In this document: piece after piece, positions 15,201 through 56,540 of the stretch
Numbering within the stretch: position 1 is the stretch's first letter
Layout of the letters: each line of letters begins with the position of its first letter
Source: Bacteroidota bacterium
Lineage (GTDB): Bacteria; Bacteroidota; Bacteroidia; M30B66
DNA: 56,540 nucleotides
Direction of reading: 5' to 3'
Assembly: GCA_947460255.1 (NCBI GenBank)
Contig: CANHIS010000014.1
Span: forward strand, 1-56,540
Program-made: the position numbers and the translations under genes
The notes under the pieces: model-generated
The model's input: the letters and a program-made list of their open reading frames with translations, nothing else
Told to the model about the DNA's origin: nothing
Database searches by the model: none

Positions 15201-15274
15201 GGATCGGTAGTTCAGCTGGTTAGAATGCCGCCCTGTCACGGCGGAGGTCGCGGGTTCGAGTCCCGTCCGGTCCG
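15201..15274 (+). tRNA. tRNA-Asp (anticodon GTC)
   Basis: A 74-nt cloverleaf. The acceptor arm pairs GGATCGG with CCGGTCC (one G-U), and the discriminator base is G. The D arm contains GTTCAGCTGGTTAGAA. The anticodon stem CCGCC/GGCGG encloses the loop CTGTCAC with GTC at 15235-15237. The T arm has GGTTCGAGTCC. CCA is not encoded. A promoter lies just upstream and a terminator just downstream, so it is a single-gene transcription unit. Confidence 0.97.
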
Positions 15275-15275
15275 C

Positions 15276-15307: not shown

Positions 15308-15583
15308 GTTTCAAATACTGGCAGCAAATACAGTTTCAATTTATGAAGCAGTAAATTGGATTTCTCAGCTGCATGATTGTTCTCTTTGAGTTGAAGTTGT
15401 TTCTGCGTCACTGATTATTTGCGCAGCCGAAAAGCTATTAAATCCTCTCGTCTTAGTTTGAGATCACTAATTTTTCGAAATGCTCCAATTCACGATTCAA
15501 TTGGAATCTCAATAATGGATCAAGAACAAAATGAAAAAAGAAATGAACCAAGGTGTTGATTTCAATTTTTCTATTCATGTTGA

Positions 15584-15674
15584 TCCTATCCTCAAATCTC
15601 CGAACTTTCCACTTGGGTAGGGGAATAACTTGGGTTTATCCCACAAAAAAAGACCGTAAATTCCAAATTTTGTT
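15584..15674. repeat. 91-bp direct repeat, copy 1
   Basis: Matches 15907-15997 with only two differences over 91 bp, at an offset of 323 bp. The core holds three G runs (TTGGGTAGGGG, then TTGGG) followed by TCCC, and the repeat ends AAATTTTGTT. The sequence on each side is unrelated between the two copies. Confidence 0.93.
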
Positions 15675-15906
15675 ATCCACCGAACAGAACAATCATTGTA
15701 GAATTTGATTCTTAAAACCATTGTGATTTTAGATAATTGGATAGGCACTCGATAAAGCTAAGTAGCACGAGTTTATTTGAATGCCTCTGTGGTGTTGACT
15801 CCTAGGTTGATTCAGCATTAGGTTGTTACTGTTACATTTATCAGAAGATAATTTTTCAACCAGGTTGGTTCGAAACTTCAAAGCTTAAGCTCATTTTCCA
15901 CTTCCC

Positions 15907-15997
15907 TCCTATCCTCAAACCTCCGAACTTTCCACTTGGGTAGGGGAATAACTTGGGTTTATCCCACAAAAAAAGACCGTGAATTCCAAATTTTGTT
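15907..15997. repeat. 91-bp direct repeat, copy 2
   Basis: Second copy of the repeat at 15584-15674, with two base differences. It lies about 137 bp upstream of the TatD-family start. Confidence 0.93.
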
Positions 15998-16133
15998 TCT
16001 AACAAAGAGCAACCATTTAGGTCAAAAGTACTGATGAAAATGAGTGAAATTATTCCATCAGTGTAATCAAGATTTCAACATCCGTTTATCACTTTACAAT
16101 CCAATAAACATCTATTTTTAAACGGAAAGAAAA

Positions 16134-52582: not shown

Positions 52583-55180
52583 CTATCGGATTACCAACTT
52601 CTTCACCGACCTGCCAAACTCAGACTCGAGCATTATCAGGTAAATACCGGCATTTAAATTTGAAGTTTCAATTCTAGAAAGGGTTTGATTTTCATGCAGA
52701 ATCTTCTGAAGGATTTCCTTACCAGCGATATCGAACAATGACAAAGTTCCTTGGCTTTTCAATGCATCGAATGATACATCAACGAATTCATTCGCAGGAT
52801 TTGGATACACGTTAAACGTTTGGTTATAAATCGTTTTGATCGATGCTGGACTCACTGCATCATACACGAAAATATTGTCGATATAAAGATTTGAGGCATT
52901 ATCGTTAATCGCTCGAAATCTGAAAATGATTTCATTCCCATCCACTTGAGAAATTAGATTCTGACGCTCGTTGTTCCAATGCGTTGATGCAAACGGACGG
53001 AAATTGGTCCAAAATGTATCGATGGTTGAAAGTTGTTGACCACCTTTATAAAACACTGTATTCCAAGTGATTCCACAATCGTCCGAATAACTAACCTCTA
53101 AAGAATCCGATAAAGTTGCACTTCTGTATCTATAGGCATAATCGAAACTAAAAATGAGTGAATCTGAATTCTGTGGAACCGCAATAAATGGAGTGTAAAC
53201 GATATCCTTGGGATCGCGAGATGTGTAAGTGAGAAACTTCATGCAGCCAGAATAACTACTGTTCAACAATCCACCAGTTTTCGTGGTGTCCCATCCCATT
53301 TTATAATCTCCATTCACCAAAAGCCAATTGTTTCCTGTAAAATCATTGTATTCGAAACTTTCTCCAAAGGGCATTGACACTTGCGGTTGGGTTTGCATTC
53401 TGAGGACTCTGCTATTATTCACAATGTCTCTTTCTTCAACATCAACTAATGGAGTGATTACCGCACGAACTTCATTGATGCCAGCGTTAAAAAGTATTGC
53501 CGGACTAAAAATGGTATCTCGTTCACCCGCTTCCAGTGTTCCAGAATAAGTACCTGATCCAATTGAAGAACCGTTGATAGAATACTGAATGATTCCACCT
53601 GCGAAGTTTGTAATACCAGCATTTCTGATTACCAATTGAAGCGGATAACTTCCTGCACAATTGATTTCCGAACCTAGAATTTTCTCGATTTCTACATCGA
53701 ATTCAGAACTGTTTGGTGGCACAGGGACATACAATTGCGACAGATAATCGTAAGCGAATTCTAGATTGATGATGCCTCTTCCATAGGTATTGTCTTCACC
53801 TTCTGCGCCAAGATCAATAGCAGTTAAATACAATGCTCTAAGAATTTCCTTTCCGGTGAGGTAAGGAAACGCTTCCTTCAACAAAAGAACTGCACCTGCA
53901 ACGTGCGGACCAGCCATTGAAGTTCCGGAATACTGTGCATATTGATCTTGTTGTACTGAGGATCTGATGTTTACACCAGGAGCAGAAACTTCAGGCTTAA
54001 TTTTCAATTGATCTGTTTCACCACAACTTGAAGGTCCACGGCTTGAAAATGAGGCTATAGGAAAATTGGGAGAAGATGCATCAACCGCTCCAACCGAAAA
54101 AACAGTTAAGCTATCCAAAACAACATAGGCGGGCATTCCTGCTGTGCTAGGTCCAGGACCTTCGTTTCCAGCCGAAAATTCAACGGCAATTCCAGCTGCA
54201 TCCAATGCGTCGTAAAGTGAAAGGATGAACGGATTGGTGCAGAGTCCGTCGATAATCGTATCTCCAAATCCCCATGAATTACAAATTACGTCTGGTACAT
54301 CATCAAACGTGCTAGGGTCCTCGTCGGGATCTAATGCAAATTCAAATGCTGATAGGATCACTTCCAAAGGTTTAACATCCGCAAGATCTTCAACAATCGG
54401 ATCAGATGCCATGTATGTAGCATTGAAAGCCACACCAATCGTGTCGTTTGTTGCTGGATCTAATCCAAGTACTGTACCTGTTACATGTGTCCCATGTGCA
54501 TCAGGTTTATCGGCAGGATTCAGAAAATCAAAACCGAGCCACACCTGCGATTCTGGAAAATAATTCCCTCTCCACTGCCGTTGAATTGCAGGATGAACTG
54601 GCCAAACTCCGGTATCAACTGTGTATAATCTTCTTCCCAATCCAGTATAACCAAGATTCCACATAAAGGGCGCGCCAATAGCATCGAGGCCTGGTTCATG
54701 ACCTCCTACGGATCTACCTTGGCTGTTTTCCATCAAAACAGGTTTGTCGTAGGTCACTTTGAGTCGATCAGCCAATTCGATAAACTCTACATCAGCTCTC
54801 GCAGCAATTGCAGGAATCAGGTCGGCAGGAACGGTTGCTGAAACCATATTCACAATATAAAATTGCTTATTCACAACAATGCCTGGATAATCATTTTGCT
54901 GACTATCGAGAAATTCAAGCAGTTCCGATTGTGATGTTTGTGCAATCTGCATTAAGTGCTGCTTCACTTGTCCTGAACGGTATTTTACAGGAACTGCATT
55001 TGAAACAAAGACAACTCTTAATGCTTGCAAATCAGCATTTTCTCTTAGAAAAATATGAACTTCACAAGGCGCATTTGAATCAACAATCTGGAGCCGACTA
55101 ACAAGCGATGTACTAATCGTTGACTGTGCAGTTATCCAATTTGTTGAAACCAATAAAATGAGCGTAAGTAATCTTTTCAT
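52583..55180 (-). CDS. subtilisin-like S8 peptidase with T9SS sorting domain
   Basis: A secreted serine protease of 865 residues. Signal peptide MKRLLTLILLVSTNWITA, an I9-like inhibitory propeptide (to about 150), and the catalytic domain with Asp189 (TVDTGVW), His229 (DAHGTHVTG), the oxyanion Asn in NSWGFGD or SAGNEGPG, and Ser421 (GTSMAGPHVAG). A beta-rich CARDB-like region and a jelly-roll region follow (about 500-780). It ends with a T9SS type A domain (VYPNPANE, LFDIAGKE, VKKLVIR). It starts 6 bp after the marR-type gene in the same direction. Confidence 0.93.
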   Translation of the reverse strand: MKRLLTLILLVSTNWITAQSTISTSLVSRLQIVDSNAPCEVHIFLRENADLQALRVVFVSNAVPVKYRSGQVKQHLMQIAQTSQSELLEFLDSQQNDYPGIVVNKQFYIVNMVSATVPADLIPAIAARADVEFIELADRLKVTYDKPVLMENSQGRSVGGHEPGLDAIGAPFMWNLGYTGLGRRLYTVDTGVWPVHPAIQRQWRGNYFPESQVWLGFDFLNPADKPDAHGTHVTGTVLGLDPATNDTIGVAFNATYMASDPIVEDLADVKPLEVILSAFEFALDPDEDPSTFDDVPDVICNSWGFGDTIIDGLCTNPFILSLYDALDAAGIAVEFSAGNEGPGPSTAGMPAYVVLDSLTVFSVGAVDASSPNFPIASFSSRGPSSCGETDQLKIKPEVSAPGVNIRSSVQQDQYAQYSGTSMAGPHVAGAVLLLKEAFPYLTGKEILRALYLTAIDLGAEGEDNTYGRGIINLEFAYDYLSQLYVPVPPNSSEFDVEIEKILGSEINCAGSYPLQLVIRNAGITNFAGGIIQYSINGSSIGSGTYSGTLEAGERDTIFSPAILFNAGINEVRAVITPLVDVEERDIVNNSRVLRMQTQPQVSMPFGESFEYNDFTGNNWLLVNGDYKMGWDTTKTGGLLNSSYSGCMKFLTYTSRDPKDIVYTPFIAVPQNSDSLIFSFDYAYRYRSATLSDSLEVSYSDDCGITWNTVFYKGGQQLSTIDTFWTNFRPFASTHWNNERQNLISQVDGNEIIFRFRAINDNASNLYIDNIFVYDAVSPASIKTIYNQTFNVYPNPANEFVDVSFDALKSQGTLSLFDIAGKEILQKILHENQTLSRIETSNLNAGIYLIMLESEFGRSVKKLVIR

Positions 55181-55186
55181 GTGGAA

Positions 55187-55675
55187 TTATTTTGAGTTCA
55201 CTTTTAAAAGGCTTCTTAAATCATCCTGAAAGGAAAGCGAATTCAAGCCAAGATTCATTAGAAAATCTTGGTCAGTTTTATCCACAATTTTACCTGCCGC
55301 TTTAAGAAGCTCCTCGCCTGATTCACTCAATGCAAGGGTTCTCGCACGAGTGTCCATCTTGTTTTTTTTTCTGCTCAACAATCCCTTTTTCTGAAGTGTT
55401 CTAAGGATTTTTGAGGTCATCATTTTATCGATTTTCACATGCTTCGCTAAATCTTGTTGTGACACGATATTCTGTTTTGTACTAAGAAACGACAATGCTG
55501 CTAAAAGCAGAAATTGTGCATGCGTAATTCCGATGGCATCTAGTCCATTCTTGAGTTTTCGTTGCCAGAGCATAGAGACCTGCCACATCAAAAAGCCAGC
55601 ATTTTCTTCAAGATCCGAGAATGCATGTTTAGTAGAGGAAGGCTTCTGAGTTGTTTCGTTTACTTTCTTTGCCAT
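55187..55675 (-). CDS. MarR family transcriptional regulator
   Basis: A 162-residue winged helix-turn-helix protein. The DNA-binding part is seen in ITHAQFLLLAALSFL, VSQQDLAKHVKIDKMMTSKILRTLQKKGLL and the wing RKKNKMDTRARTLALSESG, given in parts around 55290-55520. The start is the ATG at 55675; a longer frame to 55795 begins in a stretch with no family features. It is the first gene of a unit with the subtilase. Such regulators usually repress their own operon and respond to a small ligand, which cannot be identified here. Confidence 0.87.
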   Translation of the reverse strand: MAKKVNETTQKPSSTKHAFSDLEENAGFLMWQVSMLWQRKLKNGLDAIGITHAQFLLLAALSFLSTKQNIVSQQDLAKHVKIDKMMTSKILRTLQKKGLLSRKKNKMDTRARTLALSESGEELLKAAGKIVDKTDQDFLMNLGLNSLSFQDDLRSLLKVNSK

Positions 55676-55811
55676 TGGGGATATGATAGAGCTTGCAATG
55701 ATAAGGAAAAATGAAGATTTGAAATTCAAAAAACAAGCTTTTGTTGCAATAGCTACTGTATGGGGTTGATCGTGCTGATTTTCATTACATTTCAATTTTC
55801 AAGTGAGATTT
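55676..55811. other. region upstream of the MarR gene
   Basis: Non-coding. Probably holds the MarR-subtilase promoter, but no perfect TANNTTTG was seen on the minus strand and no clear operator dyad could be picked. Confidence 0.4.
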
Positions 55812-56540
55812 CAACAGCTGATTGGATATCTTTTTTTGAGACGATAAGTTTCTCCTTGACGAGCTTTTAAAAAATTCAGAAATTGATACTGGGAAGGGGT
55901 TAGCATTGGGAAGCTTCCCCAACAACATTTCAGCCAATTCAACAAATTTTGTTATAAACAGGAGGTCTGAATTTCAAATATCATTTGTGATATAGTTTCT
56001 ACCAAAAATGAAATTCGATGTGATTTTCCTTCTTCCAATTTCTCAAGAATACCTGATAATTCTGTGAAGCAAAAAATCCATCCAAGCACTTTTCTGCTCA
56101 TCGACATTTAATCAACAGCTGATTGGATATCTTTTGCTGAAACGATAAGTTTCTCCTTGATGAGCTTTTAAAAAATTCAGAAATTGATACTGGGAAGGGG
56201 TTAGCATTGGGAAGCTTCCCCAACAACATTTCGGACAATTCAACAAATTTTGTTATAAACAGGAAGTCTGAATTTCAAGTATCATTTGTGATTTAGTTTC
56301 TACCAAAAATGAAATTCGATGTAATTATGCTTCTTCCAATTTCTTAAAAATACTTGATAATTCTGTGAAGCAAGAATTCCATCCAAGCACTTTTCGACTC
56401 ATCGACATTTAATCAACAGCTGATTGGATATCTTTTGCTGAAAATATAAGTTTCTCCTTGACGTGCTTTTGAAAAATTCAGAAATTGATACTGGGAAGGG
56501 GTTAGCATTGGGAAGCTTCCCCAACAACATTTCAGGCAAT
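55812..56540. repeat. 301-bp tandem repeat, 2.4 copies, cut by the window edge
   Basis: Units start at 55812, 56113 and 56414 (period 301). Units 1 and 2 differ at about 19 of 301 positions; the third is cut after 127 bp with about 7 differences from unit 2. Each contains the 12-nt palindrome GGGAAGCTTCCC (55908-55919, 56209-56220, 56510-56521), inside a block identical in all copies. There is no ORF in any frame, and the conserved block is flanked by more variable parts. Confidence 0.95.

Follow-up and report, generated by a model that had tools for sequence, protein, structure and literature searches.

A dispersed family of tandem, promoter-like intergenic elements in one Bacteroidota family, part of which shares an upstream box with competence genes

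A tandem repeat without reading frames lies at the right end of the DNA analysed here, and the question that it raises is what such a repeat does. The window, that is, the whole stretch of 56,540 nucleotides, spans contig C14 from end to end; this contig belongs to the source genome, G000, which comprises 246 contigs and 4.13 Mb. The array lies on the plus strand (55811–56540) and is cut by the contig end, so that two complete units (55812–56112 and 56113–56413) and part of another (56414–56540) are visible. Tandem Repeats Finder gave a period of 301, 2.4 copies, 93% matches and zero indels, in agreement with the 301-bp unit described in the first-pass annotation. Units 1 and 2 differed at 19 of 301 positions (6.3%), matching the variation of about 6% that had been given, and no ORF of 60 aa or more was found within the array, in line with the claimed absence of reading frames. 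To its left lie a diverging MarR-like gene (55187–55675, minus strand) and a gene for a subtilase-like secreted protease (52583–55180, minus strand), both families being read from the sequence only. The adjacency to this MarR-subtilase pair is real but incidental, since other copies of the element flank unrelated genes and six loci lie in convergent gaps.

The repeat had been said to run past the window, with the advice to extend the assembly rightward and count the units. The last 150 bp of C14 matched the first 150 bp of the reversed contig C164 with a single mismatch, and C164 carries the same repeat; its last unit stops after 142 bp and gives way to unique sequence and then a CAP-like gene. 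Because of this overlap, the array is most simply read as four units, the last one truncated, located between marR and the CAP-like gene. The window contains exactly three occurrences of the palindrome GGGAAGCTTCCC (55908–55919 in unit 1, then 56209 and 56510), against a chance expectation of 0.08. The core that had been called invariant is the same in the three visible units, but the last unit, in C164, reads GGGAAGCCTCCC at this position and carries other changes within the same 62-bp block. No longer run is identical across all the visible units. With the number of variable sites that was observed, p is 0.009 for the part covered by three units, but 0.10 for the longest uninterrupted match between units 1 and 2 when these are taken alone. 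Given the latter value, the window on its own argues only weakly for selection.

A search of the whole genome and of related genomes with the core, which had also been recommended, revealed dispersed copies in G000, in its sister species G001 and in more distant relatives. With up to three mismatches, the core occurred 11 times in G000, on five contigs. A profile (R1) built from these 11 copies and those of G001 matched 39–41 times in G000 and 34 times in G001, and a second profile (R2), built from 51 diverse copies, gave 54 matches in G000, 44 in G001, 12 in G003, 10 in G004, 10 in G006 (another genus of the same family) and one or two each in G002, G007 and G009. In 30 further genomes of the class, R2 gave weak, chance-level matches only. 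G001 (CAMCXT01) is labelled a Chitinophaga pinensis MAG; it is congeneric with G000, and the species label is probably wrong. The 54 matches in G000 correspond to about 27 intergenic loci, 19 of them multi-unit and mostly tandem pairs or triplets, with a period that is near-constant within a locus and differs among loci from 135 to about 350 bp. Because many arrays sit at contig ends, true copy numbers are probably higher. Many arrays occupy divergent gaps, convergent gaps contain six loci, two loci face away from the next gene, and the distance from the array to the next gene varies widely. Comparison with Rfam and with viral contigs gave no match, which led us to reject a known RNA family and a phage origin, and no description of the family was found in the literature searched.

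A second array of the family lies within the window itself, on the plus strand. Its first unit (15576–15682; GGGTAGGGG starting at about 15615) matched R1 with 39.5 bits (E 1.8e-5) and R2 with E 6e-17, and its second unit (15898–16005; GGGTAGGGG starting at about 15938, period 322) matched both profiles. The two units (15576–16005) stand 300 bp past a tRNA-Asp gene (15201–15275); a related single unit in G001 (L104) follows a tmRNA gene. The sequence AAAATGAAAAAAGAAATGAACC at 15500–15560 resembles the tail of the unit of a 141-bp subfamily and is perhaps a degenerate extra unit preceding this array.

Copies in G001 often occupy the same gene gaps as those in G000, and flanking genes identified orthologous loci at rimM/carboxyltransferase, dinB, folP, ruvX-ygiD and others. 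Identity was compared in 11 orthologous pairs (ten G000/G001 and one G003/G004). It was 80% at -12 to -1, 100% at +1 to +9 and 86% at +10 to +32, counted from the predicted start, and 58–62% in the flanks, about the level that gapped alignment of unrelated AT-rich DNA yields. The nine core bases GGG(A/T)AGGGG were identical in all 11 pairs. The palindrome, which had been described as an invariant core, varies between copies and is outranked by these nine bases and the promoter-like bases that precede them. In the rimM array, units were 98–99% identical within a genome and about 85–89% identical between species. Since the core is conserved across orthologues and units are homogenised within a genome, these sequence comparisons indicate that selection and concerted evolution both act on the elements. 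The earlier alternative of selection or gene conversion on the core therefore holds in both its parts, on the evidence of the cross-locus and cross-species comparison and the rimM array rather than of the three visible units. An assembly artefact, which had been named as a possible refutation, fails as an explanation: related arrays stand at orthologous sites in an independently assembled species, G001, and these also rule out a lone satellite. Single arrays at L091, L087 and L101 mix units of different core subtypes, and at the ruvX-ygiD site the core subtype differs between G000 (L026) and G001 (L118).

To describe the layout of the element, the first G of GGG(A/T)AGGGG was set as +1 and 66 non-redundant copies were scored. 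Of the 66, 22 had TTG at -35/-36, compared with some 2 per position as background, and 35 had [TG]AnnTT at -12. In many copies the -7 box reads TAnATTGC, and TAGATTGC, TAAATTGC and TACATTGC are variants found in many copies; the window array has GAAATTGA. Flavobacterial sigma-A (TAnnTTTG) and SM5 (TAnnTTGY) promoters place their -7 box at -12 to -5 (PMC9723704), and the geometry of the element fits this Bacteroidota consensus. The sigma-A form TAnnTTTG also stands upstream of three RNA genes from these genomes, one each for a tRNA, a tmRNA and the SRP RNA. By its layout the element is directional and promoter-like. In unit 1 of the window array, all on the plus strand, a -35-type TTG lies at 55856–55858 (recurring at 56157 and 56458), the -7-type box GAAATTGA at 55879–55886 (56180 and 56481) and the predicted transcription start, GGGAAGGGG, at 55891–55899 (56192 and 56493); the palindrome follows as the start-proximal hairpin or C run, and then box C, CAAATTTTGTTATAAACAG, at 55943–55961 (56244).

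The same order is seen in the family, with more G runs after +1, a C run able to form alternative hairpins, and then box C (CAAA...TT.T..AC), which lay about 43–54 nt past +1 in 43 of 51 copies. GGGAA motifs abound in the core, both as repeats and in inverted orientation. Box C was within one mismatch of the DnaA box TTWTNCACA in 11 of 43 copies, against 0.7 in shuffles. Most copies nevertheless carry A at a position where DnaA needs C, so that box C is at most a possible DnaA box.

A further element was found upstream of 46 of 120 copies (about 40%), namely a phased box of two to five direct repeats, (T)AnnCGnTT, with a CG every 10 bp. CG–CG distances of exactly 10 bp occurred 67 times, against at most 10 at neighbouring values, and the box had 71 strand-matches in G000 against none for a control pattern. 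The distance from the phased box to the -7 box was 47–48 bp in 31 of 35 measurable copies, whereas that from the -7 box to the G-run varied from 11 to 16. Activator sites typically show phasing of this rigidity. With similar spacing, the box also precedes genes for ssb, an HHH/ComEA-like protein and a 23S_rRNA_IVP protein in three genomes (G000, G001 and G006) and comEC in two (G000 and G001). In G000, it stands upstream of an ssb paralog (L256:807, contig C19), an HHH_3 ComEA-like gene (L259:2330, C10), comEC (L261:2377, C25) and a gene for a 23S_rRNA_IVP four-helix protein (L258:2327, C88). At comEA of G000 and G001 the -7 sequence TTTCCTTTGC lies at the same box spacing; because the ATG is only about 14 bp further on, transcription is suggested to start at this -7 box. 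These genes (ssb, comEA-like, comEC and the four-helix protein gene) can be regarded as a candidate competence regulon, which G001 retains and G006 retains for the most part. The shared box makes the competence link of the box-bearing part of the family well supported, and natural competence probably induces this part. The window array and its close relatives lack the phased box, and the evidence for a competence link does not extend to the window array.

The phased box is common both in G006 and in the source genus, and most other genera of the family have it too; beyond the family only G024, from another family, and, weakly, G018 and G049 stand out. G024 had 30/29 phased-box matches, and its locus L154:1468 has the same layout with GGGTAGGGGGCGTTAGCCCCCG. 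In several subfamilies (L183, L184, L189-L192, L194, L199, L206-L208, L096, L111 and L113), a palindrome of the ACAGnnCTGT type near -66 replaces the phased box, and TTGTCAAG stands where box C otherwise is. In one of them, the palindromic junction GAAATCAACAG..CTGTTGATTTC at about -66 was read as an operator. A mobile element with terminal inverted repeats was considered for the subfamilies with 141–155-bp units but judged the less likely reading, the palindrome having a fixed upstream position that we likewise read as that of an operator.

What follows the start differs among core types. At box-bearing sites, variant cores read GGGGTCAG-AGGGAA-CTGGCCCC or GGGGAAGC-GGGT-GCTGTCCCC, and G024 has TATAAATTGCCCTTGGGTAGGGGGCGTTAGCCCCCG. 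In G006, the cores GGGGAGGGGATGGAGTCCCCC or GGGGTGGGAAATGTAGTTTCCCC are followed by 5–8 T in 9 nt, and in eight elements the T tract directly follows a hairpin that starts at +1 and measures about 22 nt. A hairpin with a T tract is the mark of an intrinsic terminator, and because the G006 arrangement looks like one, this form is predicted to encode an RNA of about 30 nt; at L293, L295, L296, L297, L300 and L301, the box and promoter are followed at +1 by such a hairpin and T tract. A G-run/C-run hairpin, compared by eye only, was seen across the different core types, so that the start-site hairpin seems to be retained despite different core sequences. In the lineage of the window, downstream terminators were not enriched, occurring in 4 of 66 copies against 8 and 10 in controls. 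Folding was scarcely better than in shuffled sequences, with a mean z of -0.69 and similar values for the two strands, and two alignments of the core contained no compensatory changes, which speaks against a strong conserved RNA structure. The complement of the core was also considered as a target site and rejected, because all 15 exact genome matches to CTWTCCCCTTCCC fell within element loci and no target set emerged.

We favour, as somewhat probable, the reading of the array as tandem paralogous units of small-RNA type, each with a promoter and a start-proximal hairpin. Each promoter, with TTG at -35 and (T/G)AnnTT at -12, would start transcription at GGG(A/T)AGGGG, and the transcript would at once enter a short G-run/C-run hairpin, so that the elements probably make very short RNAs, which may act as regulatory RNAs. 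The copies would have been tandemly duplicated, probably for dosage, and locally homogenised. Whereas the box-bearing 40% or so of copies would probably be induced with natural competence, the window array, with its different upstream sequence, probably answers to another signal. This reading is supported by the conservation of the core, the promoter geometry, the rigid phasing of the box, its presence before ssb, comEA-like and comEC genes, the terminator-like ends in G006 and the six loci in convergent gaps, where there is no downstream gene to serve. Against it stand the terminator counts in the lineage of the window, the weak folding, the absence of compensatory changes and of an Rfam match, and the lack of the phased box in the window array. 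The open-ended structural, regulatory or recombination role first proposed is thereby narrowed, the evidence favouring a promoter with a start-proximal hairpin.

The main rival, which we consider unlikely, is a DNA-binding site that needs no RNA: the core, with TGGGAAG, TGGG and inverted CCCA, would be a protein-read operator or chromosome-organising site, and tandem copies would raise occupancy or titrate a regulator. The abundance of repeated and inverted GGGAA motifs, the better conservation of primary sequence than of structure and the positions kept between species agree with such a site. It accounts less well for the directionality of the element and its fixed -35/-12/+1 layout, for a 47–48-bp box arrangement that also drives protein genes, or for the terminator-like ends in G006. 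Moreover, GGG(A/T)AGGGG is kept in arrays without the phased box, so titration of the activator of that box cannot be the whole role. Alternatively, the elements could be promoters of downstream protein genes, duplicated to boost expression. The phased box does directly serve ssb, comEA and comEC and many arrays lie in divergent gaps, but the six convergent loci, the two that face away from the next gene, the widely varying distances and the T tract that ends the G006 units make this explanation very improbable; the convergent loci in particular led us to reject the idea that an element drives the next gene in cis.

A mobile or selfish repeat (a MITE, REP/RAYT or attC-like cassette) multiplied in tandem, with the core as a recombinase or transposase site, is rather improbable. 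It would explain the many dispersed copies with hairpin-like cores, the mixing of subtypes within L091, L087 and L101 and the difference of subtype at the orthologous ruvX-ygiD site, and a part of the family is co-regulated with DNA uptake. Against it, neither terminal inverted repeats nor duplications of the target were noticed, orthologous positions persist after the flanks have become saturated, the viral contigs gave no match, and the core, judged by eye, does not seem to fit the attC core sites RYYYAAC / GTTRRRY. The three Y1/RAYT-type transposase genes of the genome (L048, L049 and L050, on C6, C18 and C24 of G000) carry their own, different REP-like hairpins (AGGCCTAAAGGCCC, CCCCGGACTGAAGTCCGGGG and CAGTGACGGTTTAAACCGTCACTG), and a REP of a resident RAYT was rejected accordingly. 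Non-functional satellite DNA or an artefact of assembly, to which the homogenised units and the many arrays at contig ends might point, is scarcely credible in view of the conservation across species at orthologous loci of separately assembled genomes.

If the units of the small-RNA reading are transcribed, they would constitute a very large paralogous small-RNA family for one bacterial genome (54 found, probably more), built of units with a hairpin directly at the start of transcription. Through the shared box, a connection of small RNAs with natural competence in Bacteroidota can be put to a direct test, and ssb, comEA-like, comEC and the four-helix protein gene are singled out as a candidate competence regulon. 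More tentatively, and with doubt on our part, the family could be a previously undescribed competence-linked, multi-copy system of tiny RNAs (or ssDNA hairpins), co-regulated through the phased box with ssb, comEA and comEC and conserved in one Bacteroidota family with a trace in that of G024. Such arrays are also points at which the short-read assemblies of these bacteria break.

Among known systems, REP/RAYT elements are short, dispersed, intergenic, palindromic repeats. The elements described here are so too, but they are unrelated to the resident REP-like hairpins, have a promoter layout and are conserved at orthologous sites. They share with SM5-type and sigma-A flavobacterial promoters the -7 box at -12 to -5, which in many elements reads TAnATTGC, although the window copies, with GAAATTGA, are a weaker match and those promoters mostly drive protein genes (PMC9723704). 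Closer in kind is FopS, a 14-member paralogous sRNA family of Bacteroides in which the seed is single-stranded and a Rho-independent terminator is clearly present (PMC11697453). Both are multi-copy paralogous intergenic non-coding units in Bacteroidota, each unit having a housekeeping-type promoter to itself and a short 5' part that is conserved, and the elements have the Bacteroidota -7 promoter at a fixed distance from the start as FopS does. They differ from FopS in their tandem copies, in the hairpin near +1 and in that a terminator was seen only among the G006 relatives; the two families showed no relation in sequence. The CiaRH csRNAs of streptococci are intergenic small RNA genes of 51–202 nt with terminators and with direct repeats (TTTAAG-N5-TTTAAG) at a fixed distance from the -10 box, and the CiaRH regulon affects competence (PMC3091779). 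The repeat of our elements is a different one, (T)AnnCGnTT with a 10-bp period. By analogy, the elements may work like FopS or the CiaR csRNAs; it is with the latter that about 40% of them share phased direct repeats at a fixed promoter distance (47–48 bp in 31 of 35).
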